From Ianthella basta (taxonomy: Eukaryota > Porifera > Demospongiae > Verongiida > Ianthellidae): 64,000 bases of DNA. The stretch spans positions 6,334,882 to 6,398,881 of the forward strand of contig OZ025869.1 of assembly GCA_964019415.1 (NCBI GenBank), read 5' to 3'. The notes beneath the pieces were generated by a model. That model had not been told where the DNA came from. It ran no database searches and saw nothing but the letters and a program-made list of their open reading frames with translations. Both the position numbers and the translations under genes were made by a program. Of the stretch, positions 5,290 through 63,963 are shown one piece after another (within the stretch, counting starts at the first letter, position 1; every line of letters begins with the position of its first letter).

Positions 5290-5958
5290 CTATCCACTCT
5301 ACTGTTCTACCTCCAAAGTACATTCTACCATCAGAGAAGGAGAAGACTGCTGCAGATTTTTGCTGCTTCGAAGCAGATACAAAAAGTTTGCAAACAAGGG
5401 AGAAAGGGAAGAAGCCTTTGGATCAGACCAGAGAGGACTCATGCCTGGTGGGACAATTTCTTGCATGATGTTGTAGTGCCACAAGAGTGGAAAGAGAATT
5501 TTAGGATGTGCAAGCAGAATTTCCTTCAGCTCTGCTCTATGCTACAACCTTATATCGAGAAAAAGGTTACCAACATGCGCATGCTGGTGGAAGTTGAAAG
5601 ACAGGTTGCAGTAGCACTGTACTACTTGTTTGATGAAGGACGTCTGCAAAAGACGGCAAATGCCTTTGGCCTCTCTAGGTCTTCTGTGTCCATCATAATC
5701 CGAAGAGTGACACATGCTATTGCTATTGCTATTCATCTTGGACCACAGTACATCAGTATCCCCTTAACTGAAGATGCAGTGAAGAAGGTGACCAAGTTCT
5801 TTTCGGCTTTTTGTATCCCCCAATGTTTGGGAGCCATTGATGGGACCCACATCAATATTAAGCAGCCATCATCCAACTCCACAGACTATATCAACAGGAA
5901 AGGCCACTACTCATTGAATGTTCAAGCTTGCTGTGATTATAGGTATTGCTTCATGGAT
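5290..5958 (+). pseudogene. HARBI1-like: Harbinger transposase, N-terminal two thirds
   Basis: The frame is open from 5290 to the insertion point. Typical PIF/Harbinger strings occur in order: RTHAWWDNFLHDVVV, WKENFRMCKQNFLQLCSML, a helix-turn-helix around TANAFGLSRSSVSIIIRRVT, then CLGAIDGTHINIKQP with the first catalytic Asp, and DYINRKGHYSLNVQACCDY. The frame runs into the terminal repeat of the nested element right after YRYCFMD. The expected next residues (VVVKWPGSVHDAR in relatives) reappear at 15384, which proves the interruption. No clear start Met is seen near 5290, so the start is uncertain. Confidence 0.85.
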
Positions 5959-6166
5959 CACGGCTGTTTCGAATAATACAAATGGTGGCAGTTTGGTTTG
6001 GAAACCAGGAACGAGGTAATTGGGACTCTCGAGTAAATGGACCTCAAAATATTTTAGCCTTTTTCTCATCCTACACTTGAACAAGTGGCAATTAACTTAG
6101 AGCGTACGTAGAACAGATAACAGGCGAGTGTGCTATAGTCCAAAAAGCTTGTTTTGTGTTGTCTAG

Positions 6167-6567
6167 GCAGCAAGATAATGGCTGTAACTTGTGACAATTA
6201 ATCGCCCAATAGCAGACTCCCAGTTTTCCAGCCGGTTTACTGGGTATCGAAGGAAAGTTAAAGTAGTGCAGAACATTGTTTTTTATAGCTTGTTCTACTG
6301 CCCGGTTTGTACGTTTGAGTTTCGAACGACTTTACTAGCACTCCTCTTCGCCATACTATAATCCTATACTATAGTATGGTGAGGTAAAGTGTTAATAAAG
6401 TTGTTCGAAATGCAAAGTACGAACTGGGCAGTAAAACAAGCTATAAAGGATAACGACCTGCACTACCTTGACCTTCCTTCGATACACAAGACAATGGCTG
6501 GAAAACTGGGAGAATTGCGCTACTGGACGATTAAGTGTCGCAAGTGATAAGCCATTTTCTTGCTGTC
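6167..6567. mobile_element. Fold-back MITE, about 400 bp
   Basis: Left arm 6167-6357 and right arm 6362-6567 are near-complete inverse copies around a short CCTATACTATAG centre. Outer ends pair as GCAGCAAGATAATGGCT with the inverse of AGCCATTTTCTTGCTGTC, and inner parts as GCTTGTTCTACTGCCCGG with the inverse of its partner. There is no coding content. It is a passenger inside the 9.4 kb element. Arms differ at roughly one base in ten. Confidence 0.8.
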
Positions 6568-6719
6568 AAGAGAGTGTACGAAGCAGGCTTAGCTAGCTGT
6601 TAGGCTAATGCACATGCGCCTGGTATCAATTCGATGTCTGTGCACTTGATTCAAGAGTGGAGACAAGTGCCAAGAAGCAAAGAAGGCAAGAAAGGAATAC
6701 TGCTTTCCTGTCATATTAG

Positions 6720-6870
6720 TATCAGAAAAAGTGTCAGAGGGACAGCATTTACTAGTGAATATATACTATCCTATGAGGGACATCATTCACTAAGGGGAAC
6801 ACTATTCACCATACAGCTAGCAAATTTTGTTCGAGGGACACTATTCACTAGTGAATACTGTCCCGCAGGA
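6720..6870. repeat. Short degenerate repeats (ATTCACTAGTGAATA)
   Basis: The motif GAGGGACA..ATT(C)ACTA(GTGAAT) recurs at about 6736, 6776, 6801 and 6834 in a 130-bp stretch. The core ATTCACTAGTGAAT is itself palindromic. No gene recognised. Confidence 0.4.
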
Positions 6871-7438
6871 CTAACCATAGTGGGGACACCCCACACTGTG
6901 ACATCAGGGCCTTATACCTAGTGCTCCTTTCTGAAGGTACCTGGTATTTGGAAGACATTTGGAAGGAACAATGCAATAGATTGGAGCTAGAGTTAGGTGA
7001 AATTGTGAAGTGCATGGGTGGTACTGAATGTGAGGGTGTCTGTCTCAACATGCACGGCATTGTGCATATGCATCTGTGTGTGGGTGCCATGGACAATTTT
7101 CCATTGGCAGACCAGCCGCTGATTCCATGCATCTTCTTTCTCACCATGCTAATGCTGATAGAATTTTAAATGCTGGCTGCAGAAGTACGATGGAACCCTA
7201 CCTTCTTTATCATTCATTAAATGATGGCCTGCCTAGCCTTGTTCTACAGCAGCTTTCCAGGTATATAGCATAGCCCAGATCTAATTACAACTTATCTTCA
7301 CTGCATCACTACTTCCTTTGCTCTCCTGCAGCTGACATACTACGTGCACCTGCATGCATGTGTCACTCTTGCATGCACTAGCGCTTTCATATATCCACAC
7401 CCATGCATGCACGCATATGTAAACACACATGCATACTT

Positions 7439-7497
<59 letters not shown>

Positions 7498-8288
7498 CCC
7501 AAACATATGCACACATATATATATATGCTTGCAAACACGTACAACGCTAAAACATTATGTATGTTTGCAATTGGTGATGTATAATCATACATTATAAGTC
7601 ATGATCACATGCAAATAAAGAATGCTTACTAATCTGATATTAGTTGCATATTTTATGTTATATTTTTCTATCATTTTGCAGGCTCTGCAGGAATAGTATA
7701 TAATTATAATAATAGCTGTACATGTGTATACATACGGAATATTTATGTTACATATTACAGTAACTTGTGTATATGATTTCAGTCATTATTATTAATTTGC
7801 TGCTTGTAACATAGCTAATTCACTAAATGCTAAATACTATTCACTAAATGCATTGTATTACATGCATTATGTATCAAGTATATAGCAGACACCGCACGTA
7901 CGTACATAGTTAATGTTGTATGTGTAATATACCCTTCAGCTCTTCTATGCATGCAAAATCTGGATGTAATTAGATGAGAATTACACACACATGCAATTTA
8001 ATTGTACACTAGGGGGATCGAGTTGAAAGGGAAGCTACTATAAGGTGAAATGCAGGGCATCCATGTCACAGCTGGTTTTGTGGCCACCTTAATAATTAGT
8101 TTCGAAGTGGAAAGCGTGATGTTTGAGATTATGACATCAAATAATTAAAATAATTCTTATAATTATAGCGAAGCAACAACTGTGTACATTATTCCCCTTA
8201 TCATGTGCAAGCTGTGAATCAATGCAATTGCAATTGGCTTGTACCAGGGCACAAACAATGATATAAATACTGCGAAGAACCACTCCTG
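6871..8288. other. No gene recognised; contains a CA microsatellite
   Basis: The stretch is AT-rich and non-coding as far as I can tell. It includes an uninterrupted (AC)n run of about 28 units at 7439-7494 flanked by other CA/TA-rich sequence. Open frames here come from the dinucleotide repeat. Confidence 0.5.
7439..7494. repeat. (AC)n microsatellite
   Basis: About 28 perfect AC units, followed by ATGCCCAAACATATGC and a short AT run. Confidence 0.95.
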
Positions 8289-8363
8289 CTACTTCAATGC
8301 ACACGACACACCATAGGTATGTTTCGGCCAATTCCAGGCCATCATCAGGTGTGCTGGAAGTAG
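8289..8363 (-). ncRNA. Hammerhead ribozyme motif, type I layout
   Basis: On the minus strand the conserved CUGAUGA core (8348-8342) and GAAA (8325-8322) flank a GGCC/GGCC helix II. Helix III is CAUACC pairing with GGUGUG across a UAU loop. The cleavage triplet GUC (before 8304) is followed by GUGUGC, which pairs perfectly with the 5' GCACAC, then an internal loop, then GAAGUAG pairing perfectly with 5' CUACUUC. That gives 13 helix I pairs in two blocks. One extra U lies between CUGAUGA and helix II, which is not canonical. Such motifs are known in Penelope-like retroelements and retrozymes; no host element is recognisable here. Activity is untested. Confidence 0.72.
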
Positions 8364-8372
8364 TAGGGCTAT

Positions 8373-9101
8373 GGGACTAGCTAGACATTTGGGCCCATGT
8401 AGCTGTACAAGGAAATTAGGAATGCATAGCAAATTCAAGGCAATGTGACTCATCATGGTGTCGAGTTACTGTTGCTTGTTTCTATGCTTTTTCTGCTGGC
8501 CATTCCTAAATCCTTTTTAATTCAGAAGGAATTTTTATACACTATTAGAATGGCAATGACCTAATTTCCTTGTAGCTACATGGGACTAGCTAGACATTTG
8601 GGCCCATGTAGCTGTACAAGGAAATTAGGAATGCATAACGAACTTCACTGCAATGTGGTTCATCATGGTGTTGAGTTACTGTGCTTGTTTCTATGCTTTT
8701 TCTGCTGGCCATTCCTAAATCCTTTTTAATTCAGAAGGAATTTTTATACACTATTAGAATGGCAATGACCTGAAATGTACAGGACGAAATTATAAAACTA
8801 GAGTATAAAAATTCCTTTAGAATTAAAAGGGATTTAGGAATGGCCAGCAGAAAAAGCATAGAAACAAACAACATTAACTAACACAATGATGAACTACATT
8901 GCCGTGAAGTTCACTATGCATTCCTAATTTCCTTGTATACAGCTACATGGGCCCAAATGTCTAGCTAGCCAGTCCCATGTGTCTAGCTTCACAGCAATGT
9001 GGTTCATCATGGTGTTAGTTACTGTTGCTTGTTTCTATGCTTTTTTTCTGCTGGCCATTCCTAAATCCATTTTAATTCTAAAGTCATTTTTATACACTAG
9101 T
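8373..9101. mobile_element. Cluster of four copies of a 200-bp MITE-like unit
   Basis: The unit runs from GGGACTAGCTAGACATTTGGGC to AATGGCAATGACC. Copies are plus 8373-8561, plus 8582-8770, minus 8797-8976 and a partial plus copy 8988-9101. Shared strings include GCTGTACAAGGAAATTAGGAATGCAT, in pieces, and TTTTTCTGCTGGCCATTCC. Copies differ by only a few bases, so the amplification is young. The GGACTAGCT..ATGTAGCTGT ends are partly inverted. No coding content. Confidence 0.75.
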
Positions 9102-10285
9102 TTGTACAGTTTTTGCATATCCAATGGACTATGGTTACATTAGATTGATACCAGTGCTGACTAATACCCCGGGCCCTTCCTTAAATTAGCTGAAGATTGT
9201 GCAGAGCATCGAGCACAGTTATGCCACTTTAGATGAACCGGCTGTCGTGTACCGTATGGTATACCAGCACAACAAAATGGCGGCATTGGGGTATCTTTAA
9301 TACACGGGGAAGACAAATTTCCTGCCCACTCCAGCGCTATACTTATCAGATTGCCACTAGCGCTCAGATCCTAGTCCTTGACCTAGGTGCGTAAGTCCTC
9401 GTACACGTCTTAGGTCCGTAGGTGCCCTGTGTTGAGCGCTAGGAGCGTGCAAAATTTCAGTGGGAAGAAGAAGAATATGAAAAGACAAATAATGGGGTAC
9501 GAGCAGCCTATGACGCTTTTCCCTTGCATGAACTCCAGGTTGCCTTTGGGTGCACTGCTTACTTCAATACATCCAAAGAAGCCTATCCATGGCCTTTAAT
9601 TCTCCTTTGCCACTGCCGTTTGGCTAGTTTCACTGAAGCGCACTAATACATTAAGATAGGGACGCCATTTTGAACCAGGTACCTTCCTAAATAGACATCA
9701 CGAGCGTGACGTCTGATACCAGATCATGATCCATAATGTGTCAATACCAAGCTGTGGAAGTCCGAGTAGCGAAGTGGACAATTATAGCCAATGGACTAAA
9801 AAAATTGCTATGACCCAACCTGTGCATGATGCTGAATAGGAGAACAATAACAGGAATGTAGATACTGATGCATATCCTGTACAAAAGGTCAGAATTTCCC
9901 CACTCATTTGTGTATATAGATACAAGGTAGTGAAAATAATTGTGCAAGAAAATGGACAGCTATACCACTAACAACACTGCCTTGTGGCTACAGCCACTAA
10001 CTGGATACCTAGGAAAACTTGAGTTGACGAGGCGCAGCAATTTTCACTGAAGGACTATAGCTAATACAGTGCATGCATGAAAAGCAGGCAGCTTCGGGCA
10101 AATGTTAGAGTGAGCCCTGACTGACCTTTTCTCTCTGCTGTACTAGATGATGTAGATAGCACCCATGATGTGGGGGAGGGAGGCATCCTATCATAACCAC
10201 CTCCTTTGCCAGACTGGCCCGTAAGATTGGGTATGAGTTATAAGCAGATTCTGAAGCTTAAGCTTGTTGAAGGCCCCTGTACAGA
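9102..10285. other. No gene recognised before the transposase gene
   Basis: No protein motifs are seen in any frame. The region probably holds the promoter and 5' untranslated part of the gene starting at 10286, but I can point to no TATA box or other element with confidence. Confidence 0.4.
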
Positions 10286-13200
10286 ATGGAAAAACACAGA
10301 GAGAATTTGCTGCACCTATGTAGACTTTGTGGCCACAGGCTTAGCAGGAGGCAAAAGACAACATACTCCTGTCATGACTTCACTACCAGACTTGGGGCTG
10401 TCATGGCTGTGGACATAAGCCAGGACCAAGAAGATGTCCACCCAAAACAATTCTGTAACAACTGCTACAGAAAAATGACTAAGTAAGTGCAGTACTCAAA
10501 TCAAGGTATATTATCATGTATAATATAGTGTAAGCTCTATTTTCGTAGCACAAATATTTTGGGAATGGCTGTTTTTAGGATAATTTGCATTTCTGGATTC
10601 ACAAATTGCCACATGGTAAATATAATAGTTATATCGGCCATGAATGATTGAGCAGGCCAATTCGTGGATTGTCCGAATTCATATACACTTTGCGCACGGA
10701 CAATCCAAGGATTGAGTAGGCCAATCCTCGGATTGTCCGAATCCGTACTTTGCGCATGGTCAATCCATGGATTGGCCAACAATATACGGATTACTGCACA
10801 AAGCATTAATCTGCGGTTAGCACAGGCCAATCCGGGGATTGTCCACATTCATACTTTGCACATAACATACATATATACTAGATGCATAAAGCATGAAGAG
10901 GGACTTCATGAGTACAGGTTACTGTGTATGTACAATTGCAAGTGTGCATGCCTGAATCATCTCCATGTGATACTGTGCAAGAAGAATGGAACGGTATGCA
11001 CTTCCAATGCAGTTGTGAAGAACCAAGAAGGAGCGGGAAGCATCGGAAGATTAGTACTACTAGTGAGTGTGCAGAAGGTGGAAGTTTAAAATTACCAACT
11101 GGAGGTCAGGTAAGATGTACCTGCATGTACATTGACAACACCCACTAATCAGAATGCTGCATGTACACCATAATATACTTGCTTACAAATATTTGTACAT
11201 TATAGTCACTGTGCTTTCAGCGCATTACTCGGACACGAATTGCCAGTAGTGAAGCCAGTACTCGAACAATCAGGGAGCGTAGTAGCACCATCAATGATGT
11301 CCGAGGAGTGGTATCTGGAGGTTCTGCCGCCTCACACACAGCTCAGTTAGCTGCTGAGCTCCGGCACACTGCTATGACAGAAAGAGAAACAGCCTTAAGA
11401 GAAGCTGGTATTCTAAGCTCTGTAGAGGTGCCTGATGAGGACTGCCTCACAATGAAGGCCAGTTTAGCCATTCCATGGCATAAACTGAGACACATTCGAA
11501 GGTAAAAAGTGATGCTTCACAGTTATCCAATAAACTCACTGGGTAACATGAACATGCTTATAACTACATACATAGATGGCTATCAAAGTGGGGGCTAAAG
11601 CTTGCCAGTGAAAACAGGACACGGAGCATCACACGGCAGTGGGCCCCTAATGAAACTGCAGGAGAGTTGATGCCCTTCTTGTTTACTGCAAATGATGGTG
11701 AAGAAATACGTACAGCACCATGTGTGTACGTACACACCGCATTTGTTCAGTTGTGTGGAAACTTTCTTGGAGGAATTATCCAGGTATGAATTGGCAGTGA
11801 GTATAGCTAAGCGTATGCATTCACATATTACACTGATTACAGGAATTTGCTGATGAAAACAGTCTGTTACAATATGTATGTTGTCTGTCATATATCTATA
11901 GGGCACAGGCTTTGACCTGGCATGATGGCCACATACCCAAGGATGAGATTTGGGTAAAACTTGGCGGAGACAGAGGAGGAGGGTCCTTCAAAATGTCCTT
12001 TCAAGTAAATGCACCATGCATAACAAATACTTCAATTTACAGCATAATTATAGCTACTGGAAGTATTTTTGCAAGGCTTAGTGTTTGAAATTAAGCAGCA
12101 AATGGACATTACCCAGCATCTCCCAAATGAAGTCTCTGGCCATCTTCTTTCACAATTTTTACACTTCACACAATCAATATGCAAGCAATGAAATGTGTGA
12201 AGAAGCAGTTATAGCTACAATATTGAAATGATGTAGATTTCGTGTTCTCTACCATGTTCCATATTCATCTTATATTTATATGTAGGTTGCTAATGTGGAG
12301 AAACCCAACTCCGCAAAGAACACCTTTGTCTTTTGCTATTTCAAAGCAGGAGATATTACTAGGAACCTGCACATAGCACTGGGCCAATACCAACAACAGA
12401 TCCACACAATTTCGTCAGCAACGTGGGAGTAAGCAATGTATACATAATTTGATAGTTTCAGCACAGCTGATACTGTGTGCCATATAACTCAAAAACTTTC
12501 GCAATCATTACTGTTCACAAACTTGCAAATGGAGCACATTTGCAAACATTTCTATTGCAAACATTCATATACACAAACATACATAGACATGCATGTCATA
12601 AAAAAGATAATATGCAATATGTCATAGAAAGATGGCGGATTAGCAAATGCTAACAAAAGCACTTGTTCACTCAATTTTAGACGCTACATCTCACAATATT
12701 GGTCACAGAAGCAACTAATTGCCAAAGTAGTATAGCGTCCTTAGCGAAATATTATTCGCAAGCATTCCTGACCCCAGCATTATGAAAGCAGCGAAAAGCT
12801 TGTGATATACAGTAGTCACTGCAATACTGTTTCTAGTTCATATTGACATTTGTGCACTCAATCACATAAATAAATACTGGAACATCAGATTCTATGTGTT
12901 TTCAACATATTCCAAATTTCATCATACATGAGAGAATCTGATGTTCCAAATACTACATTTAACACGTTGTGTGATTGAGTGCAGAGTGCACTGGACAATC
13001 AGGATAATAACCACAAATATCCACATAAAACTGCATGCAACAAATATGCTTCACATGTACAAAACTTCAGTTCATCCACATTCATTGCCTTTCTTTGCAG
13101 AGGCAAAGCGATCCGTGTTTTCATCTTTGGAGACTATGAGTTCCTTTGTCGTCTTTTCAGGATCTCTGGCCATAGTGGTACGATTTAGGCACACAGGCTT

Positions 13201-14867
13201 GGGTTACTAGTGGAAGTGGCATTATATCCTTCACCAAAATGACATTCATTTAGGGCGTCATTGTTGTCTGTGGTGCAACATTGACCAACAGCAGATGGCA
13301 AGACCCCGTGAAACTCGAGGACAACAAGAACCAAGGACGCTGGATACACTACAACATGACCTACAGAGGTTCCAATCTGCTGGTGGGCTCATGAAAGAGG
13401 CCAAACACTACAATAATGTCATAGGACTTGTTCTATTCCACGTCCCACTTGACCAGGTATGACAATAAACATTATTATTAAGGAAGAACATTTAAGGCAC
13501 ATGCATAGCTAAAAGCAGTTCTCATTACTCCAACAGGTAGCAATTCCAGCTCTACATGTAAGCCTGGGCATTTTTCAACCACTTTACGAGCTGCTGGAAA
13601 ATGCTTGTCATGAACTGGACATCAAGCTTGCAAGAGCAACCACAGCACCAGTGGAGGCGAAGGAAGCCTACTTGCGCTATGCTGAACAACTGAGGGAATG
13701 AAGCTGACAATTACCAGCAGATGGCAGTCCAGCTTGCACTCCAAGAAGATGATGAAGACGCAGGGACAGTGCAACTAATTGAACTTTTGTTATCCGAGGC
13801 ACAGAAGTTCCACGCTGAAGCTTGTTCACTAGTGAGTGTACTAAAATGTATACAGCTACAATTTAGAGCAGACTATAGCTACCCTGCAGCTGTTTATGCA
13901 CAATGACCATCTTGCAATTCAAAATGCACATATAAGGAAAATAGATGTACGTACTACACTACAATCAAGGTGCATGTTAAGTGTCTGAACATGCCAGCAC
14001 CAGTGCATACTAGTTCGTGTGGGAGAAAGTGTGGATGCAACATTATTGTGTATACAAACTCTGGGATATACACAATGATGTGTCAGAGATTGAACAGGAA
14101 GTACAGATAGGGCAAGTTGTGATATATAAAAGCAGCAATCTGCAGGTTCATGTGCCATTCTTTGTAAGGAAAAGTTCTGAGTGAGAAGCTGCTGGCTATG
14201 GAAAACAATGAAAAGTTATTACACCTTTCAAAGATAAGGAGTGTATAATATGTTAACACGTCTACAACTTAGAAAGTAGAGAAAGCTGAAAATGCGGTGA
14301 GAGTAGAGAAAGCTGAAAATGAGGTGACTTGTGTGCCTGACACACCAGAACGTGGGGACCAAGAATTGATACCAGCAACCCCACTGAAGCAGAGCCGAAT
14401 CAAGTCAATTGCCTTTGAGGGTTTGGACAGTAAGCTGTAAATACGACTATAATAATCCCACGTAATACATGCATCTGTACTGACAGTTGCACATGCAACA
14501 TATATTATGTATAGTGTATACGGGTCCTTTCCAGAGCAAGGATGAAGAATTGCATGGTGAATACATACATGCATGCCACACAAAACATCTTTGACAAGAA
14601 ATAACCCATTGACTTGGTCACGCTACACTATATTTCTTCACAGAGGATAATGAAGACATGTGGCAGAGTTGTGACAGCAGTGAATATTGCTCTAAAGCTA
14701 GTGAGTATCTATACAAAGAAAAGTGGGGGGCAGGGCCAGAGACTAAAGAAGAAGATATACCACAAGCACAGCCACGCAGATCAGACGGGTGGCTCATTCC
14801 AGGATATAAACGCTACATCTATAAAATCAGGAAAAGTGCACGGAAAATGAGTGCACCAAAGAAATAA
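10286..14867 (+). CDS. Multi-exon transposase with RAG1 N-terminal-domain-like zinc module
   Basis: Exons by GT/AG borders: 10286-10482, about 10943-11108, 11221-11501, 11576-11783, 11909-12004, 12286-12428, 13101-13177, 13254-13456, 13537-13831, 14273-14429, 14644-14867 (stop). Frames join cleanly from exon 3 to the end. Exon 1 reads LLHLCRLCGHRL and, 30 residues on, HPKQFCNNCYRKM. This is the CxxC..HPxxFCxNCW layout of the RAG1 N-terminal domain. Exon 2 has EWNGMHFQCSCEEP, comparable to the W..H..C..C after it in RAG1. The core has KLGGDRGGGSFKMSFQ, VFIFGDYEFLCRLF, SGHSGRHCCLWC and YNNVIG, which look like an RNase H-fold catalytic region with a zinc insertion. Catalytic Asp and Glu assignments are inferred. 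A frame change with a TGA near 13700 breaks exon 9, and the exon 1-2 join is out of phase. Probably a recently dead copy. Confidence 0.72.
10654..10860. promoter_or_regulatory. Palindromic repeats inside intron 1, possible binding sites
   Basis: AGGCCAATYC..GGATTGTCC followed by CATACTTTGCGCA occurs directly at 10654, 10718 and 10824. Half-site versions in inverse orientation (GGACAATCCAAGGATTG, GGTCAATCCATGGATTGGCC) lie between them. Each unit is nearly palindromic around CCAATCC/GGATTG. The array lies between exons 1 and 2 of the transposase gene. A role as protein-binding sites is inference only. Confidence 0.45.
12853..12985. repeat. Small inverted-repeat element (about 130 bp)
   Basis: GCACTCAATCACATAAATAAATACTGGAACATCAGATTCT, seen in two blocks, is answered by AGAATCTGATGTTCCAAATACTACATTTAACAC and GTGATTGAGTGC on the other side. 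It lies in the intron between the exons ending at 12428 and starting at 13101. A MITE remnant is most likely. Confidence 0.6.
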
Positions 14868-15383
14868 GCCAAATCCTTGTACTGTTTCAGTCATTGACTA
14901 TGTGTTCGTCTGATTGTAATCAACACTAAATAGCATTTATGCTTATTGTTGCTTCAGGCAGCCCTCATGCATCCCCTCCGCTCAGCACCCCATTTCACCT
15001 CCTGCAGTTGCTTCTCAGCCACCTTATGTGCACAATGTATACTGTCATAATTATACTCCTAGTATATATTAGCCAATGCTGTGAATTGTGTCCATGTATA
15101 TAGAGATAAGGTGATCAGCATAATCCTCTTTGGCGAATGTAAACCTTGCAGGTAAACTCACTATTTTCATAACAGAAAAAACAGAATCCACAATGTTTAA
15201 AGTACAACCTACCTTCACTGGGTGAGAGCTATCCAGAAGCAAAGTTTCGTCCTCCTTGCAGTGGCGAGGGCTTAGGGATAAGAAAGTTGAATCATAGTAC
15301 TACACTCCTTCCTTGTGTTGACGCATTCCCATTCCCAATTTTTCAATTCAGAAAAACTAAACTGCCGCCTCGAAACAGCCGTG
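14868..15383. other. 3' part of the nested element, no gene seen
   Basis: The stretch runs from the transposase stop to the right terminal repeat. It must hold the 3' untranslated region. AATAAA-like signals are not obvious just after the stop. Nothing else recognised. Confidence 0.45.
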
Positions 15384-15876
15384 GGATGTAGTAGTTATGG
15401 TAGTGTCCATGATGCCTGAATGTTTGCGAATTCTTCGCTGAACGAGCAGTTAAGAAACAGAATAATACCTCCTTGTCCTCGGCGAATTGTGGATGATGAA
15501 GAACCCATTACGGTGTTCTTGTTAGGTGATCCTTAATGCCGTACATGATGAAAGAGTATGCAAATGGTGGAAGCAGTCGCCAGGAGCAGTACTTTGGCCT
15601 CAACCTATGCAGTGCAAGGAATGTGATTGAATGTTCTTTTGGTCGTCTGAAAGCGAGGTTTGGCGCACTGAAAAAGGACAATGGACATCAAACTCGATAC
15701 ATTACCTTTTGTAATTTATATCAGTGAAGACAGGGTGAGAGCAGCCATTGACTATGACAAGAACTTTCAACCTACAGCTGTTGCAGGACCCAGCAGATAC
15801 AGGAGCGACTGCAATGAAGCCGAGGGCAAAAGGGTGCGAAGGGTGCGAAGTGTTCTTACCAAGTACTTCAATTCAT
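15384..15876 (+). pseudogene. HARBI1-like: Harbinger transposase, C-terminal third
   Basis: This continues the gene interrupted at 5958. Strings in order: [40 protein letters not shown], then after a frame change [39 protein letters not shown] with the catalytic Glu, and after another frame change MDIKLDTLPFVIY. It ends with a basic tail and a stop at 15876-15878. There is an in-frame TGA where relatives have Arg before MFANSS. Breaks seen: one stop and about three frame changes. These lie in the plain DNA transposon and are separate from the insertion itself. Confidence 0.82.
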
Positions 15877-15912: not shown

Positions 15913-16656
15913 TTACAAGTGACAAGCGACACTGCTGCCTGCATCATCTTTTTGTCCTTCTGGTTCAGCTATAAAGGAATGTGTTGCATCAGTAGTACTC
16001 AATTGCTCTTCATTGGAAGTTGTGTTAATGTCTGTACTCTCAACTCTGGTGACAATCTGTTCGGTGGCTGGAGATCCACCCCAAATCTTCTCGCACCATT
16101 CGAAACTATTAGAGGAGTACAACTCTTCCATGGCCACATCTTCTACCAGAATCAACAGCTGAATGCCTTTCAGCTTAGATGTGACAACTTGCTTGGTGAT
16201 CTCCTCTTTCTTATGAGGGTAATCCCTGCCCATTTCCGTTGCTGCCTCTGGGCTCGACGGTAGTTGTTCCTTCAGGAGTTCCCATATATTTTGATATTTG
16301 CTGCGAACCGTCTTCCAGTCAACACATTTTGCTGTTTTCGAGACCTTGTAGTCCAGGGTCACCTTCAGCAGCAGCTCCGACTCATCATCCGTCCACACAA
16401 AAGCTGTCTGCTCCTTTTCCATAACTTTTGCCGTCTTCTCTTTCATAGCCTTCATCGTCTTCTTCGTAGCCTTCGCAGTCTGCTTCGTAGCCTTCGCTAT
16501 CTGCCCCTTCGTGGCTGTCGTCACCTCTGCCGTCTGCTGTGTCACCTCAGCCATCTGCTGTGTCACCTCCGTCTGCTGTGTCACCTCCGTCTGGTTCTCG
16601 CTAGTTGCTGCTGGTATGCTTCTTGTCGCCATATTCTCCGCTCCGCTTAGCTGCAT
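15913..16656 (-). CDS. Harbinger accessory Myb/SANT-like DNA-binding protein
   Basis: A 247-residue single-exon frame starts at an ATG at 16656. The first 90 residues are low complexity, with repeats of TEVTQQ and KATKQTAK. Residues about 87-150 read FVWTDDESELLLKVTLDYKV, CVDWKTVRSKYQNIW and FPHKKEEITK-like YPHKKEEITKQVV. This is the trihelix/SANT-like layout known from the second protein of PIF/Harbinger elements, which helps the transposase reach DNA and the nucleus. CEKIWGGSPATEQ near residue 190 is also typical. The frame is intact over its length. Position and orientation at the right end of the element fit the family. Confidence 0.8.
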   Translation of the reverse strand: MQLSGAENMATRSIPAATSENQTEVTQQTEVTQQMAEVTQQTAEVTTATKGQIAKATKQTAKATKKTMKAMKEKTAKVMEKEQTAFVWTDDESELLLKVTLDYKVSKTAKCVDWKTVRSKYQNIWELLKEQLPSSPEAATEMGRDYPHKKEEITKQVVTSKLKGIQLLILVEDVAMEELYSSNSFEWCEKIWGGSPATEQIVTRVESTDINTTSNEEQLSTTDATHSFIAEPEGQKDDAGSSVACHL

Positions 16657-16785
16657 GGAATTACACCTTTGAGTAACACCTCAGCTGTTTCCATCGTTAC
16701 CGTGTAAACACCATAAAACGGAAGCGATTTTTCACTTGACGAAAACGTCACGAATGCGAAACGTCATCGTGTAAATGGAGTCTGA

Positions 16786-27062: not shown

Positions 27063-27410
27063 TTAGATGTACATGTCACCATGCAGCAATGCAAGCACAT
27101 AGACACTACACGAACCCAGATGTCCATGATAGGGCTTGGCTCCACACTTCTTGCATTCCTCTGCACAAGTTAAATGGTAGAGACCACTTTCACTGCAGTT
27201 GCTACATCTGACATCTCTTGTTGGTGTCGTCACTCCCTTGTCAGCAAAGTACTCCAGGCAGTTAGCCTTCTGCATCAGCTGTGTCAGTGCTTGCAGCGAT
27301 CTCATGTTGGTTGCCCTGAGCAGCAAAGCGATATTGTAATGAATAGAATTTGCATGCATAAGCATCCCAAAATGGATGTAAAATAATCCACTGATTAACT
27401 ATACGTGAAA
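27063..27410 (-). repeat. Three-copy repeat containing a Cys-rich coding-like segment
   Basis: The part from about 27168 to 27410 recurs at 57089-57325 and 58440-58665. On the minus strand it can encode LLLRATNMRSLQALTQLMQ and KANCLEYFADKGV, then CSNCSESGLYHL. Here the frame runs further into CAEECKKCGAKPYHGHLGSC (two CxxC pairs). This may be an exon of a zinc-binding protein. Copies differ by only a few bases. The repeat abuts the LINE endonuclease in both 27 kb and 57 kb copies. Confidence 0.55.
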
Positions 27411-27484
27411 GGCGCGAACAAAATGGCAGCGGCTAACTGCGCTGGGTAAAAATCGTCTGAAGACAGCGCCGACCGGCCAAGACA

Positions 27485-28050
27485 ATGAGTGCCTCAGAAT
27501 TGGATCTTGGAATGTGCGATCAATGAATGGGAAAGATCGGGAGTTCATTGAAGAGATGAGGAAGTACGATCTCTGTATCCTCGGCATTAGCGAGACGAAG
27601 AGGAAAGGTAGCAGTGCCAGAGACATTGAAGACTACTACGCAATCTACTCGGGAGTGAGCGAGGGCAGGGCGAGAGCGGGTGTAGCTGTGGTCCTTTCAG
27701 AGAGAATGAGAAAGTGCGTAAAGAGTTGGAAGTGCGTAAGCGAGAGAATTGTGGTGGTGAAGTTGAAGGTGGCAAAGAGTGCTACACGTTGGTGCAAGCG
27801 TATGCTCCAACGGACGACAGCAAGAGTGAGGCCAAAGACCAATTTTATGCTGAGATGCAGAAGGTTGTGGGGAATGTAGGAAGAAGGGCGACCTAAATGC
27901 AAGAGTGGGTAGAAATACGGAAGTTTGGGGTGGTGTTCTTGGGTGTCAGAGGGAGGATGCTAGAAATGAGTGGGGAAAGGCTGTTGAGGTTTTGTTCAGT
28001 GAATGAGTTGATGATCACCAACACATGGTATCCACATAAGGACATACATA
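27485..28050 (+). pseudogene. LINE apurinic-type endonuclease fragment, copy 1
   Basis: It reads LRIGSWNVRSMNGKDREF, IEEMRKYDLCILGISETKR and AGVAVVLSERM, then YTLVQAYAPTDDSKSEA and GDLNARVG-like strings in other frames. This is the exonuclease-endonuclease-phosphatase fold at the start of LINE ORF2, closest in feel to RTE-type elements. It has several frame changes. The sequence stops matching copy 2 at 28050, exactly where a Tc1 element begins (CATACATA then CGGTACGTG). No reverse transcriptase follows. Confidence 0.75.
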
Positions 28051-28942
28051 CGGTACGTGTCAAGAAAAAGTTTATGTTCTACGGTTGTAGCAACGCCCGT
28101 ATGTTAACCCGTATTATAAGCGTACGTTTTGCTAGTTACCCCCGTACATACCCCGTACATACAAGTCGCACCCGTTGGCAAACTACGGCTAAGCTACGGG
28201 TATCGTAGGTATTGATAGCAGGAAGTCAGTCCTTCGATGCCATATCTACCCTACATACTTCCCCACAGGTGTAAAAAGTGTTCGAGGTGTATTCCAAGAT
28301 TGTTCTTTGCGTTGTGAGTGATATTTCTCTGGGCCTGTGGCTGTTGCGGCTTCGAGTGTGCCACAGAGACACCCTTGTCCAGTTCCAGCTTCGCTGCGAG
28401 TGTCCGTGCTTGAGGATTCGGTGTTTCAGCGTCAATGGTGTATTCCGACTACGTGAAGCAAAGGATCCTTTTTCTATCACCGCTTGGGGAAGAGTTACAC
28501 GGACATTGCTGACTGCATGTCTGAAGAAGGACACAAAGCCAGCAAAATGGGCATGTACAAGTTCCTCAAGCTGTACCAGAAGACTGGCACTATCCTGCGC
28601 AGACCAGGGAGTGGCCAAGCTTCGAAGATATCCGCAGCAGCGAAGCAAATCATCGATGAACAGATGAAGAAGGACGACGAATCCACTGGAATGGAGCTAC
28701 AGAAAATCCTTGTAAAGAATGGCATCATAGTCAGCGCAAGGACAGCCTTGAGATGGAGACACCAGTTAGGCTGGACATCTAAGAGTACAAGCTATTGCCA
28801 GATGATAAGAGATATCAACAGAGAAAAAAGACTGGCATGGGCACGCCAACACAAGGACTTGACCTTCGAAGATGTTATATACATGGACACTCTATGCACT
28901 GCCATACCCTATCCTTCCTTACAGTGGCCAACAGCTGAATGA
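28051..28942 (+). mobile_element. Tc1/mariner element, 3'-truncated
   Basis: It interrupts the LINE copy at a TA (28049-28050). The transposase starts at ATG 28435 (MVYSDYVKQRILFLSPLG), changes frame near 28485, and goes on as KSYTDIADCMSEEGHKASK, MGMYKFLKLYQKTGTI, LRRPGSGQASKISA (paired helix-turn-helix) and GWTSKSTSYCQMIRDIN. It ends abruptly after FEDVIYMD, at the first catalytic Asp, so the DDE core is missing. Right end not found. It is related to the copy at 36881-37874. Confidence 0.75.
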
Positions 28943-36880: not shown

Positions 36881-37874
36881 TTAATATCCAGTGGGTCCAC
36901 CTTCGCACTCGATCACTTTAGGCAATACTTTTGACAGGTGATTGATGTAGCGGCAACATTTTGTGGCGTCAACCGTTTCCCAAAAAAAGAATTCCTTGAA
37001 TGAGTTCTTCTTTGCTTCTTGGCTTTACCTCTTGCCTCAAATGCTCCTTCAGTTCATGCCAAAGATTCTCAATCGGGTTACAATCTGGAGACTCTGGTGG
37101 GGTACGCCACCAGTTGACTCCATTGTCAATGATAAACTGTTGTGACCGGGCAGATGTATGTTTGGGGTCGTTGTCTTGGATGAATCTGTGCCCATTCGAA
37201 TAAAGTTTCTTAATCATTGGCAAAAGTGCTTGCTCCAGTATGCCAGTGTAGGCAACTGCATCCATACATCCTTCAAAGATGCAAATTCCAGATCTGCCTT
37301 CCTTGCTAATAGCAGCCCACACGTGTACCTTACTTGGGTGCTTCGGTCTGGGCTTGTATCTGGGTTTCCGTCCTGACTTAGTACAGCAGAATCTCCGATG
37401 AGTCTCTATTTGAACTGTGGTTTCATCAGAGAAAATGGCATTCGAGAAGTCATCTCCTTTGTTTTTTCTAGCCCATTCCAGTCTTTTGTCCTTGTTGACC
37501 TCACGTATCATCTGGCAATATGCACTACCAAGGCGTGTCCACCCAAGCCCAGTTCGGCATTTAAGTGCAGTGGTTTCACACACATGATGGCCATTCTCTG
37601 CTAGCATTTTCTTTAGTTCCTTTGCTGTTGTCTCGTCGTCATCTGTCATTTTCTCATCAACCAATCTCCTCACTTCAGCAGCTATCTTTGATTTCCTACC
37701 TGAGCCCTCCTATCTGCCAATAGTACCACTTGCAATGTACAGAAGCTTCTGGATACCTTGCCTTGAGGCTGGTAGACCTTCCTGTGATAGGATTCTAGAT
37801 GTTGTAGGTGCCTCGCGTCCATCACAAGACAGAGAAACAATCCTCTGCCACTTGTACTCGCTGTAATTTGCCAT
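36881..37874 (-). pseudogene. Tc1/mariner DD34E transposase, nearly whole
   Basis: Starts ATG at 37874 (MANYSEYKWQRIVSLSC), then the helix-turn-helix SRILSQEGLPASRQGIQKLL and EGSGRKSKIAAEVRRLV. The catalytic core has AIFSDETTVQIETHRR, HVWAAISKEGRSGICIFEG, FIQDNDPKHTSARSQQF and SPDCNPIENLWHELK. Asp, Asp and Glu are spaced as DD34E. The C-terminus WETVDATKCCRYINHL and CEGGPTGY ends at TAA 36881-36883. Length is about 331 residues, full for the family. Two breaks: a TAG (37710-37712) where relatives have Arg, and one frame change at an A7 run (36982-36988). Being in a homopolymer, the latter could be a sequencing error. Confidence 0.9.
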
Positions 37875-50527: not shown

Positions 50528-51879
50528 TGGTGTCAGAAGTGACAGGATGGCTAGTGTTCGGTTGCAGCCTCCCTCCCCCTTTGAGTTCCGGAATCCAGAT
50601 GAATGGCCCCGCTGGAAAAGGCGATTTGAACAGTTTCGCCTAGCGTCCGGACTGTCCTCAGAAGACGACAGTAGACAGGTCAGTACATTTCTATATTGCA
50701 TGGGTGAACATGCGGAAGATACGCTAGCATCTACGGATATCTCCGCTGCTGATCGTACAAAGTACCAGAAGGTGATCGACAAGTTTATTGGCAGGTGCAA
50801 GGTGAGCTCACTCTTCACGAGGATCTCCTCCTGTACAACAGCCGAATTGTTGTTCCCAAGAGCCTGCAAGCCATAATACTGCAGGAAATCCACACTGGAC
50901 ACCAAGGCATCCAGAGATGTCGTCAGCAAATATCTCAATCAGCATGGTGGCCTGGAGTGTCCAAGGAAATAGAACAGCTTATCAGGTCATGCCCAACCTG
51001 TGTGAAAGCCTCCACTCCACACAAGGAGCCAATGATGTACTCACCACTTCCCAGTCATCCATGGGAAAGAGTTGGATCAGATCTTTTTGAGCTTCATGGG
51101 ACCACTTACCTACTGGTTGTGGACTATTTCTCCCGCTACATTGAAATCCAGAAGCTTTCTTCTACCAACTCTAAAAGTGTTATTCTAGCACTGAAAGCCA
51201 TCTACTCTAGACACAGAGTTCCGGTCACGTTGGCCAGCAGTGACAATAGCCCACAATATGCTTCTCAGGAAATGCAGGAGTTCGCTGAGTCCTATGGATT
51301 CAAGCACACCACCAGCAGCCCACACTTCCCTCAAAGCAACGGGATGGCTGAGAGATCAGTCAAGACAGTGAAGAGCCAACTTGACAAGGCAAGCGACCCG
51401 TACATGGCAGTCCTCAGCTACAGAGCTACTCCATTGCCTTGGTGCAATCTAAGCCCAGCTGAACTTTTGATGGGCAGACGTCTGAAAACAGACATCCCTC
51501 AGCCAAAGGCAGCATTCATACCAGAATGGACCCATTTGAGAGGGTTTCGAGAGAAGGACAAAGAGTGGAAGGAGAAGCAGAAATCCGCCTATGACAAACA
51601 ACATCGAGTCAAAAACCTGGCTCCCCTTCCTGATGACCAGTCAGTGTGGGTAAACACCCAAGACAGACTACAGGAAGAGTCATTCAGCCAGCTGCAACCC
51701 TAAGGTCCTACATCGTTGAAACACCTACAGGACAACTTCGTAGAAACTGCAGCCACCTCATCCCAATACCTGAAGAGTCTCAGGAAGACACACCGGAGAG
51801 CGATTCTCCACCAACCCAGACTATTGCCACCCGATCTCGTACTGGAACTCACACCAGACCGCCTTCCGAGAAAGGGAGA

Positions 51880-53171: not shown

Positions 53172-54231
53172 CTAACAGAAAAGCCCGCCTTCGGCGGGCT
53201 GTCCTGCTATGGCGCGCCGACGAAGGCTACCCGGCACCAGCATGTCCACGCCAGCACATTGACGATAGCTATTCAGGGGCCAACAGGTTGGCAACAGCTG
53301 TGTGGGTCCCAGCAGTCATCAATGGCCTATCTGACATCGTGTGCATGTGAAAACGTCAGTGCATCACACAGACTAACAATGATTGGAGTATTCAAACGTC
53401 ATATGACCATAATAATATAGTGCAGGTCAACAAGCCAATGACCATGGCACACGTTAGCTAACCTGACAATGATACAACATTGTCAGGTTAGCTAACGTGT
53501 GCCATGGTCATTGGCTTGTTGTCTTTAACTTTAAGATGCTGCAGTGCACCTACGCGACTGAGTGCAATATCCAGTTCGTCATGAGAAAACAGAGGCCTGT
53601 GTAAGTAAATACCAATGGTGTGTCTGGTCCTGGGGTTTAGCTAGCTAGCTAGCTACATGATGAGCAAGCACGTAAAGTTGCTGAGGCTGGGCAAGAAAAA
53701 CGCTAAGGAGCTAACCGCAGGCAGTCTTGATCCTGTTGCAATTGCTGCTGACAGTGGTCTAGATGATCCTCTGTTAGGACAGGCTCATCCACTGTAGTCT
53801 CTCTTGGAGATCGCCCGTAATGGTGGAGAGCGCAAAGTCATCAGGAAGCACAGGCGTTTCGCGGGATATGCCTGTGGGAAGCGCGGTCCCTGTCTGTTGG
53901 GCATGGTTGGCTTCGCTGGTTGCTGGCGTCAGTGCGCTGAGCTTCTCCTACAAAGACCATTGCTTTCAGTTGCACTGCCACCTCGCACTCCTTGGCAACC
54001 TTTGGCAAAGATGGCATCGTTATCCGAAAAAAACATGGCTGCCACAACGGTATATCTCCGATTGTCTTCGCAGAGGCATCGCGTGTGGCTGTTTTCGCGT
54101 CACGGCTGAATCGAATGGAGGTAGTCCGAAGTGCTGTATAAGAAAGCTTGCCATTTTCGCGTTGCAAAACGCTAAACGCTGCTAAGAATACGGAACACGG
54201 ATACTCAGGCTTAGCTCCATTATATATAGGA
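53172..54231 (-). mobile_element. Non-autonomous Helitron, 1.06 kb
   Basis: On the minus strand the element starts TCCTATATATAATGGAGC and ends with hairpin GCCCGCCGAAGGCGGGC, then TTTTCTGTTAG. A 5' TC, a GC-rich hairpin about 7 bp before the end, and a terminal TTAG (a variant of CTRR) are Helitron marks. It lies between A and T with no target duplication. The uninterrupted site (ATTTGTATGGTGCAAAG) is present in family copy B at 34800-34816. No Rep/helicase is encoded. The inner part holds a 43-bp perfect hairpin and a possible captured fragment (MSKHVKLLRLGKKNAKEL). Confidence 0.85.
53428..53521. repeat. Perfect 43-bp inverted repeat with 8-nt loop
   Basis: Arms 53428-53470 and 53479-53521 are exact complements, beginning CAACAAGCCAATGACCATGG. 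The loop is GATACAAC. It lies within the Helitron. Such perfection suggests a recent fold-back event or an assembly fold-back. Confidence 0.9.
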
Positions 54232-57419: not shown

Positions 57420-58436
57420 GTGCCTCAGAATTGGAGCTTGGAATGTGTGATCAATGAATGGGAAAGATTGGGAGTTCATTGAAGAGATGAGGAAGTACGA
57501 TCTCTGTATCCTCGGCATTAGCGAGACGAAGAGGAAAGGTAGTGGTGCCAGAGACATTGAAGACTACTACACGATCTACTTGGGAGTGAGCAAGGGCAGG
57601 GCGAGAGCGGGTGTAGTTGTGGTCCTTTCAGAGAGAATGAGAAAGTGCACAAAGAGTTGGAAGTGCGTAAGCAAGAGAATTGTGGTGGTGAAGGTGGCAA
57701 AAGAGTGCTACATGTTGGTGCAAGCATATGCTCCAACAGACGACAGCAAGAGTGAGGCCAAAGACCAGTTCTATGCTGAGATGCAGAAGGTTGTGGGGAA
57801 TGTAGGAAGAATGGAGACTTCAATTGTTATGGGCAACCTAAATGCAAGAGTGGGTAGAAATATGGAAGTTTGGGGTGGTGTTCTTGGGTGTCACGGGAGG
57901 ATGCTAGAAATGAGAGTGGGGAAAGGCTGTTGAGGTTTTGTTCAGTGAATGAGTTGATGATCACCAACACATGGTATCCACATAAGGACATACATAAGGA
58001 CATACATAAGTACACATGGATTTGCCCAGGGAGGCAACTGAGGAGCCTGTTTGATTACTTTCTGGTGAGAAGGGTACATGATGTGAAGGTAGTGAGAGGT
58101 GCAGAGATAGGGAGTGATCGTCATCTGGTCTTGATGAAGATGAGCATGAGGAGCAAGGTAGAAAGAAAGAATAGGGTGAAGAATAAAGCAAGGGTAAAGA
58201 TAGAGAGACTAAACGGTTGAAATATCAGTGTAGAATTAGGCAGAAAATTAATAGTGGTAGGAGACACGAAGGTCAGGCAGAGGGGGCAACTGTTGAAGAG
58301 GCATGGGTTGAGTTTAAAGAGGCTATACTGAGCATGGCTGTGGAAGTGTGTGGGATGAAACGGTCAAAGGGTCAGCAAAAGAGGACAAAATGGTGGAATA
58401 ATGAGGTGAAGAAAGCAGTGAGGATGAAGAAGATAG
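57420..58436 (+). pseudogene. LINE apurinic-type endonuclease, copy 2 (longer)
   Basis: It reads MNGKDWEFIEEMRKYDLCIL, GISETKRKGSGARDIEDYYT, CYMLVQAYAPTDDSKSEAKD and METSIVMGNLNARVGRNMEV. After a frame change come LLRFCSVNELMITNTWYPHK, YTWICPGRQLRSLFDYFLVR and GAEIGSDRHLVLMKMSMRSK. QKRTKWWNNEVKKAVRMKKI closes the domain. N, E, D-N, SDH-like (GSDRHLV) motifs of the endonuclease are in order. This is the first third of a LINE ORF2 of RTE feel. It is cut off at 58436 by the third copy of the Cys-rich repeat, and no reverse transcriptase follows. Confidence 0.8.
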
Positions 58437-58665: not shown

Positions 58666-58880
58666 TCCATTAAGACAATTACCTGAAGAGGTGAGGTAGT
58701 CATCAAGCTTAGCTTGCGACGCTACCGGGCGATCTACCAGGTGGTGGTCAATCTGCTCGACTGGTACCCTCTGAAACAGAGACAGAAGGGAGTGATGAAG
58801 AAAGTTACAGGATATCCCCACTTTGCATCAATGCGTAAATTTCAATTTCTCGTGCACCTCACCTGGCTCTCCTCCCCTCA
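58666..58880. other. No gene recognised
   Basis: A frame beginning YRAIYQVVVNLLDWYPLKQR at 58714 runs into the minisatellite. It may be a short exon, but it has no recognised family. Confidence 0.3.
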
Positions 58881-58884
58881 TCTT

Positions 58885-59605
58885 GGGTTCCCACAGCCTC
58901 CCCCCACTCAGTCCCCACACCCTCCCACCACTCAGTCCGCATACCCTCCCCCTACTCAGTCCCCATACCCTCCCCCCACTCAGTCCGCATACCCTCCCCC
59001 CAATCAGTCCGCATATCCTCCCCCCACTCAGTCCCTATACCCTCCCCCACTCAGTCTGCATACCCTCCCCTCACTCAGTCCGCATACCCTCCCCTACTCA
59101 GTCCGCATACCCTCCCCCCACTCAGTCCCCTCCCCCTCCCCCCACTCAGTCCCCATACCCTCCCCCTCCCCCTCCCCTACTCAGTCCCCATACCCTCCCT
59201 TCACTCAGTCCCCATACCCTCCCCCCCCCACTCAGTCCCCATACCCTCCCTTCACTCAATCCCCATACCCTCCCCCCACTCAGTCCCCATACCCTCCCTT
59301 CACTCAATCCCCATACTCTCCCCCCACTCAGTCCGCATACCCTCCCCCTACTCAGTCCGCATACTCTCCCCCCACTGTCCCCTTGCCCTCCCCCTACTCA
59401 GTCCGCATACCCTCCCTCGACTCAGTCCCCATACCCTCCCTTCACTCAGTCCCCATATCCTCCCCCCACTCAGTCCCCATACCCTCCCCCCACTCAGTCC
59501 CACTCAGTCCACATACTCTCCCCCCACTCGGTCCCCATACCCTCCCCCCACTCAGTCCCCATACCCTCCCCCCACTCAGACCACATACCCTCCCCCTACT
59601 CATTC
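58885..59605. repeat. 24-bp minisatellite, about 30 units
   Basis: The unit is CCATACCCTCCCCCCACTCAGT with variants (GCATACC, TTCACTCAATC). The long open frames across it (Pro/Ser/Thr-rich) come from the lack of stops in the unit and are not counted as genes. Very strand-asymmetric: almost no G on the plus strand. Confidence 0.92.
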
Positions 59606-59819
59606 CACGGCGATTAACAACTGCCATTTTTGTACACGCACGTGTATCATATTTCACACGCGTGTCAGATGCATGGTGCATGGCTTAGTACTACTATACA
59701 AAATAACTGCATGTTTGCATACTGTCAGTCATGCAATATTGAGGTAACTCCATTTCTATCATTTTATAACCTGTTTTATAGGTATCCAGGTTCTATATTG
59801 TTCTGTATTATGATTATGA

Positions 59820-62244: not shown

Positions 62245-63963
62245 TTATCTCCTCAGGCATTTGCATGCTTGCGTCACTGACTCTTGGGCCTCCTTCCACT
62301 TCCTTTCAAAATCCTCTGGACAATTCCAGTAATGTGGAAATTGTCCAAAGACAGTGGTCTTAAGCAGAGCCAATTCCATTTGAGGAAGTGCTGGTATGCC
62401 AGTCCAGCCTCTTGGAGTGCACCTCTTCATCACTTCTTTACCAAATGTTGCTTCGCGTGCCAATTTGACAGAAAGCTCGCCTATCTTGCACTCTGTATGT
62501 AGTGCTGAATACTTACGCAAGACAACAGTAATGGGTGCAAGTTTTGACTTGTCGATTTCACTTGATGTCAGCTCTTCATACTTGATACTCACCGGAGCAA
62601 TTGGTAATGGTAGGTGTGGCAATACCAAAGGTGACTCCAAGCTCCGTGACTGGGCTGACGGGGTGAAGGGCAGCTGATCCTGACCGACTCCGGTGTTCAG
62701 CATGTGGCTTGACTGGGTGATGTGGCCCTGAGGTAGAGGGGCAATGGGCAGTGGATCCTCCAGGCTCTGTGACTGAGCTGACGGGGTGAAGGGCAGCTGA
62801 TCCTGATCGACTCTGGTGTTCAGCATGTGGCTTGGCTGAGTGATGTGGCCCTGAGTTAGAAGGGCAATGGGCAGTGGATCCTCCAGGCTCTGTGACTGAG
62901 CTGACGGGGTAAAGGGTAGCTGATCCTGATCAACTCCAGTGTTCAGCATGTGGCTTAGCTGAGTGATGTGGCCCTGAGTTAGAGGGGCAATAGGCAATGG
63001 ATCCTCCAGGCTCTGTGACTGAGCTGACGGGGTGAAGAGCAGCTGATCCTGATCGACTCCGGTGTTCAGCATGTGGCTTGGCTGAGTGATGTGGCCCTGA
63101 GTTAGAGGGGCAATGGGCAGTGGATCCTCCAGGCTCTGTGACTGAGCTGACGGGGTGAAGGGCAGCTGATCCTGATCGACTTCGGTGTTCAGCATGTGGC
63201 TTGGCTGGGTAATGTGGCCCTGAGGTAGAGGGGCAATGGGAAGTGCAGAGTCCATGCTCTGCGTGTGGGACGGCTGGGTGATGGGCGGGAAAGGTGCCCC
63301 ATAGTTCTGTGTCTCAGTTGGGCGAGTTGCAATAGGGCAGATGGCAATATGTTTATTTAGCTTCTTGTTGCTCTCTTCTACTGCCTTCTGTAGGGCGTCC
63401 AAGCTCTTTTCCAGCTTCCGAACTGTTTCCTTTATAAACTGACATCTTTGCACATTTCGTCAGCCAGTGTTGTTCTTTGTTCTTCAAAGTCAAATTCAGC
63501 TAGATCCAGGATTACTCCTGTTGGCTGACTCTGGTCTTTGTGACGTTGACTTCTATCGTTGCACCTTTTCTTTGCTGGTGGTCTTGTGGGTTGAGCACTG
63601 GCTGGCAACCTCCTTCGAAGGTACTGAGAGTTCTCTTTGAGGAATCTGATTCTCCACCTGTCCATCGATGAATTCATCTGCCATCAATGACATATCCCTT
63701 TGCGATCCTATAGATTGCAGGTGCGATTGTAGGTGTTTTAGAAGTATACATACGTACTACAGATACAAAAACGTACCAATCTGGACGGTTGTTCCCACGT
63801 AGGACTTCTTCCCAATGAGAACTTGGCAGGTTTCTCCGACGACAGGAGGTTCAGCAAACTTGGACAGGGCTACAACGCTCACGCAGTCCTTGCCTGCCCA
63901 GTAGACGAGCGCATGGTCGTCTGCCGGCTTCTGCATAGCTCTCAACGTAGACCGTAGATTCAT
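62245..63963 (-). CDS. BEN-domain-like gene, copy 1, with 41-residue repeats
   Basis: Exon 1 (63963-63772) starts MNLRSTLRAMQKPADDHALV and reads YWAGKDCVSVVALSKF, VVGETCQVLIGKKSYVG, ending at a GTACGT donor. Exon 2 follows a GGCAG acceptor (63681) with PAKKRCNDRSQRHKDQ, PTGVILDLAEFDFEEQ and EMCKDV, then one frame change. The main block (63453-62245) begins with a coiled coil (IKETVRKLEKSLDALQKAVE), continues with five copies of a 41-residue repeat (GHITQPSHMLNTGVDQDQ, LPFTPSAQSQSLEDPLPIAP) and ends in a BEN-like domain (CKIGELSVKLAREATFGKEV, CTPRGWTGIPALPQMELALL, FERKWKEAQESVTQACKCLR). The C-terminal half is nearly intact. Role likely DNA binding or chromatin contact (family knowledge); it may be element-borne. 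Confidence 0.6.
62640..63245. repeat. 123-bp coding minisatellite in the BEN-like gene
   Basis: GGATCCTCCAGGCTCTGTGA begins units at 62753, 62876, 62999 and 63122, exactly 123 bp apart, so the frame is kept. A fifth, diverged unit lies at the 62640 end. Confidence 0.9.

Follow-up and report, generated by a model that had tools for sequence, protein, structure and literature searches.

A degenerate, probably Chapaev-like transposon with a RAG1-related zinc domain in the sponge Ianthella basta

Where the N-terminal, non-core half of RAG1 came from is not as well established as the source of its core. In the account of Kapitonov and Koonin (2015, PMC4411706), the Chapa domain is a truncated part of the RAG1 N-terminal region and is carried by TransibSU, Chapaev and Chapaev3 transposases. 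The same account reports a RING following Chapa in two Chapaev subgroups, and as of that paper neither Chapa nor RING domains were known from other transposable elements. Chapa joined to a Transib-superfamily core is the Chapaev architecture published there, and the presence of Chapa in Chapaev transposases was used to explain the RAG1 N-terminus. In the accessible text of PMC4298943, Chapaev is named once, in a list, and "sponge" refers there to the element Spongebob. Published features of the CACTA/Mirage/Chapaev/Transib (CMC) clade are a C(2)C motif that follows the second D, termini of the form CA..TG and target site duplications (TSDs) of 2–5 bp (PMC12730594).

We analyzed a 64-kb window (64,000 nucleotides of contig OZ025869.1) and found a nested transposon of 9,425 bp on the plus strand, at 5959–15383. 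With high probability, it is a degenerate cut-and-paste transposon of the CMC clade, most likely Chapaev-like, that sits in a Harbinger-like transposase gene and whose own transposase carried a Chapa domain at its N-terminus, joined to an RNase H core like that of RAG1. We call it Chapaev-like, and a likely member of that group, because its Chapa-plus-core architecture is the published one, without a RING. Since such elements were described before, it is a new example and not a new kind: a new and probably dead Chapaev-like element, with a domain combination that was already described in 2015. A first-pass annotation of this DNA had proposed that a zinc module joined to such a core bears directly on where the RAG1 N-terminus came from. 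The combination is indeed present, but it is not new given the account in PMC4411706. A precisely bounded element that has a RAG1 zinc domain and a DDE-like core, and in which no RING or RAG2-like gene was found, adds one more data point. It supports the view published in PMC4411706 that fusion of the zinc domain to the core long predates vertebrate RAG.

The limits of the element were set by a scan for terminal inverted repeats (TIRs) and TSDs. It begins with CAC and ends with GTG, has a perfect 14-bp TIR (CACGGCTGTTTCGA at 5959–5972 on the plus strand, with its counterpart at 15370–15383 on the minus strand) and is flanked by a 4-bp GGAT duplication (5955–5958 and 15384–15387). This is the sole pair in the window, at separations of 1–20 kb, with a perfect 14-bp TIR and a 4-bp TSD; about 7e-5 such pairs are expected by chance from the base composition and the region scanned. 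A Chapaev TSD is 4 bp. The CAC...GTG ends and the 4-bp duplication also fit the clade rule of CA..TG and 2–5 bp (PMC12730594). A third TIR-like match, with 2 mismatches, lies at 54101–54114. When as many mismatches are allowed, shuffled sequences give a mean of 0.20 matches per window, and this one may be chance or a remnant of another copy.

The element is inserted within the gene of another transposase. The left flank (5290–5958) is the 5' part of that gene and matches positions 1–44 of the 158 in the DDE_Tnp_4 profile (E = 2.2e-7), and the right flank (15388–15727) resumes at positions 97–137 of 158 (E = 7.6e-4, below the cutoff). We take DDE_Tnp_4 to include Harbinger transposases and call the interrupted gene Harbinger-like on that assumption. 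When the element and one GGAT were excised in silico, the left frame stayed open for 17 more codons past the join. The interrupted copy is decayed, with stops and frame changes soon after the join, and no clear pair of termini was found for the outer Harbinger-like element. Next to this gene, on the minus strand, lies an ORF of 255 aa (15913–16680) that contains short TQQ/KAT repeats; nothing in Pfam matched it above the cutoff, and one possible identity is an accessory Harbinger protein.

Within the element, exon 1 (10286–10482, plus strand) is a single open frame that begins with the ATG at 10286, extends up to the GTAAGT donor at 10483 and holds HLCRLCG (10313–10333) and HPKQFCNNC (10439–10465). 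The first-pass annotation had pointed to these two Cys/His motifs as RAG1-like, and both are there. Used as a query, the translation of 10286–10486 matched the Pfam family RAG1_imp_bd in two stretches (E = 2.1e-9; 37.8 bits, with the cutoff at 23.3). A sequence search of the PDB (177,635 distinct sequences) placed RAG1 entries as the top 3 of the 19 matches listed at E ≤ 10, led by 21wb_A at E = 2.6e-6 and followed by two at E = 0.026. In the alignment with 21wb_A, HLCRLCGHR stands opposite HFCRICGNR and HPKQFCNNC opposite HPTEFCHDC. Other cuts of the query still returned 21wb_A first, more weakly: E = 6.5e-5 with exon 2 added and E = 2.7e-4 with 54 trimmed residues. By profile score and alignment, exon 1 is homologous to the non-core N-terminal region of RAG1, and the resemblance goes beyond chance. 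AlphaFold2 predicted an all-helical structure for exon 1 alone, with a mean pLDDT of 71.5 (39.3 to 71.5 across five models), and none of the 26 Foldseek matches to it was RAG1, a result that weighs neither for nor against the homology.

An unrelated Cys-rich module of the ZAD or FYVE type could in principle imitate RAG1 through its Cys spacing. Both families do give weak matches to exon 1 below their cutoffs (zf-AD, 17.7 bits against a cutoff of 28, E = 0.0044; FYVE, 18.1 bits against 27.8, E = 0.0029), as does zf-AD to exons 1 and 2 together (E = 0.0091). Such weak zinc-type matches mean little because several shuffled controls also drew matches to other families below the cutoff, the best with E = 0.018. 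No RAG1_imp_bd match was seen in any of 10 shuffled versions of exon 1, which comprised five full shuffles and five in which every C and H was kept in place (0 of 5 in the latter set). The first-pass annotation had named a stronger ZAD match as the result to look out for, and none occurred: RAG1_imp_bd is above its cutoff and scores about 20 bits more than zf-AD or FYVE. Together with the lead of RAG1 in the PDB list, these results leave a chance likeness of Cys spacing with almost no credibility, and neither ZAD nor FYVE was accepted as the identity of exon 1.

The alignment indicates which part of RAG1 is matched. In 21wb_A the aligned motif occupies residues 16–33, and in full-length RAG1, a chain of 1040 residues, it occupies residues 102–119. 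From the motif positions in both chains, the 137 residues of 21wb_A span roughly RAG1 87–223. By this placement, exon 1 matches the central non-core zinc domain of RAG1 (87–217) and not the RING/dimerization part. According to PMC3124419, the central non-core domain has conserved cysteines, binds zinc strongly and prefers double-stranded DNA, and together with the neighboring region it aids nuclear localization; residues 265–380 (ZDD/RING) contain the dimerization domain and a RING with E3 ligase activity. The module had been presented at first pass as one that helps dimerization and ubiquitin ligation. That function belongs to a different part of RAG1, because the match is to 87–217 and those activities map to 265–380. 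A ZDD/RING reading of the zinc module was also tried and rejected: no RING profile follows the zinc domain, with none at E ≤ 1 (Pfam) in pieces covering exons 3–11. This differs from the two Chapaev subgroups that PMC4411706 describes with a RING after Chapa. The equation of Chapa with the matched part of RAG1 follows PMC4411706.

The element shares with the RAG1 central non-core domain the two aligned Cys clusters of exon 1; a third cluster, in exon 2, is degenerate and only weakly supported as part of the likeness. The first-pass annotation had described a W..H..C..C cluster in exon 2. A W..H..C.C cluster, EEWNGMHFQCSC (10981–11016), does lie in a second open stretch, which runs from 10912 to a GTAAG donor at 11110, but its cysteines are spaced C-x-C and not C-x2-C, and searched by itself exon 2 returns nothing RAG1-like, either from the PDB (no hit of any kind at E ≤ 10) or from Pfam. 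The 5' limit of exon 2 (10943–11109, plus strand) is uncertain, and 10943 is one candidate that is in the wrong phase. At 10909 the frame of exon 2 is already closed, and no canonical join to exon 1 was found among acceptors from 10860 onward: nine AG acceptors lie between 10882 and 10985, only the one at 10899 is in phase, and all nine translations contain a stop. When exons 1 and 2 were joined with an X, the RAG1_imp_bd match stretched to profile position 218, yet it scored 35.2 bits; the larger spliced protein scored 30 bits, against 37.8 for exon 1 alone. The RAG1 profile search proposed at first pass for both exons was thus significant for exon 1, and exon 2 added no score. Intron 1 contains several related inverted repeats of the CAATCC..GGATTG type (10658–10845).

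Downstream of exon 2, splice sites and open frame predict further exons on the plus strand. Exons 3 (11221–11501), 4 (11576–11783), 5 (11843–12004), 6 (12286–12428), 7 (13101–13177), 8 (13254–13456) and 9 (13537–13831) are connected by canonical GT-AG joins in one frame of 412 codons. A preset frame of this length would be open by chance with a probability of about 5e-11 at the intron stop rate, a figure that ignores the freedom in choosing splice sites. G+C at the three codon positions is 0.56, 0.44 and 0.43, compared with 0.35 in the introns. Two more exons are predicted at 14273–14429 (exon 10) and 14644–14867 (exon 11, with a TAA stop at its end). In the proposed transposase, exon 1 would be spliced to the exons that follow.

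On inspection, the D, D and C(2)C features of CMC-type transposases are present as GGD, GDY and CLWC. WVKLGGDRGG in exon 5 (11951–11980) holds the putative first catalytic Asp and RVFIFGDYEFL in exon 7 (13114–13146) the putative second, and CLWC in exon 8 (13265–13276) is a ZnC2-like pair with its cysteines 19 and 22 residues past the second Asp. The distances from D708 of RAG1 to C727 and C730 are the same. IPALHVSLGIF in exon 9 (13543–13575) may correspond to the H795 region of RAG1. The first-pass claim of a zinc module joined to an RNase H-like core is therefore borne out by a gene that bears the D, D and CxxC motifs of a DDE core. In Pfam, the only match to the core is DUF1280 (E = 1.6e-11).

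These features invite comparison with the RAG-like transposons. The zinc region, the RNase H-like core and the CAC-starting ends are common to the element, to RAGL/ProtoRAG and to TransibSU. Transib, as presented in PMC7204232, is without the RAG1 N-terminal region that the element has. If the element were itself of the ProtoRAG/TransibSU type, it would be closely related to the direct ancestor of RAG1/RAG2, and its RAG1-related zinc domain and its CAC-starting, bipartite ends with unequal spacing would agree with that. We nevertheless regard such kinship as very unlikely. Searched against the PDB, the core finds nothing at E ≤ 10 even though RAG1 chains are in that library, so that by single-sequence search it is not detectably similar, and the TSD is 4 bp instead of the 5 bp given for RAGL in PMC9435367. 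A partner gene was not found either. None of 30 further ORFs inside the element had a Pfam match above the curated cutoff; on that basis no RAG2-like gene is visible, although a RAG2L divided among small exons might escape such a scan. Together with exon 1, the 30 take in all 18 ORFs of one ORF listing. Six of the 30 gave matches below the cutoff, none of them named kelch or RAG2 (ASC, Rad10, HVO_2753_ZBP, Toxin_35, SAC9_C8D and DUF5575; E from 0.0078 to 0.06), which we take as chance. A search of NCBIfam returned nothing above the cutoff. Thirteen ORFs of at least 90 aa overlap the element, and all were scanned except 12932–13210.

Chapaev (Kapitonov and Jurka 2007, as described in PMC4411706) and the element both have a RAG1-related zinc domain that is part of a Transib-superfamily type of transposase; a difference is that in this damaged copy neither an H(3-4)H pair (ZnH2) nor a third acidic residue can be recognized. 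The first-pass annotation had instead raised a sponge relative of the molluscan N-RAG-TP. Both that transposon, from Aplysia (Panchin and Moroz 2008, as cited in PMC8355894 and PMC2996935), and our element encode a RAG1 N-terminal-like protein. N-RAG-TP is said in PMC8355894 to consist entirely of the N-terminal-like part, whereas the gene studied here runs on into a DDE-like core. Direct kinship, judged by description only, is a real possibility that we nonetheless consider doubtful. It may also amount to the same thing as a Chapaev-like origin, because N-RAG-TP may itself be of the Chapaev type. Two pattern scans of viral contigs and one of prokaryote genome contigs gave matches, none of which was confirmed as a relative, and collections of this kind would hardly contain animal transposons.

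The copy is damaged. Near 13700, inside exon 9, the reading frame shifts. A scan of 13820–15390 in all three plus frames gave 10 stop-free H..H strings (2–5 residues apart), none of which shares the frame of the predicted exons, and neither GN[HF] nor QAY. With no in-frame H..H and no GN[HF] or QAY after exon 8, there is no recognizable ZnH2 or third acidic region. The copy is probably dead or truncated at the C-terminal end of its core, and the earlier statement that the full gene is visible was too strong in view of the frameshift and the unrecognizable third catalytic residue. The frameshift also speaks against a domesticated host gene derived from a transposon and no longer mobile. A long spliced open frame is what such a gene would show, but perfect TIRs and a TSD around an insertion in another transposase gene are not, and we hold domestication to be highly improbable. 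A cluster of nested inverted repeats, with arms of up to 139 nt at 88%, lies inside the element at 8377–9103 and probably represents miniature elements inserted later.

If the Chapaev-like transposon worked as its parts suggest, an intact core would have cut at the CAC...GTG ends and made a 4-bp staggered strand transfer, which would yield the GGAT repeats. The zinc domain would bind zinc, aid nuclear entry and hold DNA, as its RAG1 counterpart does.

The ends contain a second block in addition to the TIR. At the left, GGTGGCAGTTTGGTTT (5984–5999, plus strand) begins 11 nt inside the TIR; at the right, GGCGGCAGTTTAGTTT (15354–15369, minus strand) lies directly inside it. The two 16-bp blocks are identical at 14 of 16 positions, a level reached by 1 of 3000 mononucleotide shuffles and by 1 of 3000 random window pairs. 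In this one copy, the 14-bp and 16-bp blocks are thus 11 nt apart on the left and 0 nt apart on the right. The spacers of 12- and 23-RSSs differ by 11, and 11 nt is about one helical turn. RAGL ends are likewise described as bipartite with unequal spacers, for example 4/13 in Aureococcus (PMC9435367). It is nevertheless unlikely that the ends follow a RAG/Transib-style bipartite, asymmetric plan as a family trait; with a single copy, a plain indel of 11 nt stays the simpler account. Were the offset a family trait, the pairing of unlike ends would reach beyond the RAG/Transib branch to Chapaev-like elements with the zinc domain of RAG1, and the origins of the 12/23 rule would lie further back. 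Asymmetric ends, if general, would give a testable handle on the origin of paired unlike ends.

The window holds several other pieces of transposons and retrotransposons. Tc1/mariner-type transposase fragments lie at 36972–37709 (minus strand) and 28457–28939 (plus strand), with matches to DDE_3 (E = 5.8e-23) and HTH_Tnp_Tc3_2 (E = 3.3e-5, below the cutoff). A retroelement-type integrase is present at 50753–51700 on the plus strand (Integrase_H2C2, E = 4.8e-16; rve, E = 5e-12). Two similar plus-strand ORFs, at 27409–27879 and 57451–57933, look like LINE endonucleases by eye, and the former has no Pfam match at E ≤ 0.001. Long repetitive ORFs occupy 58687–59747 and 62245–63459, one set being proline/serine-rich and the other carrying PLTQGHITQPSHMLNT-type repeats.
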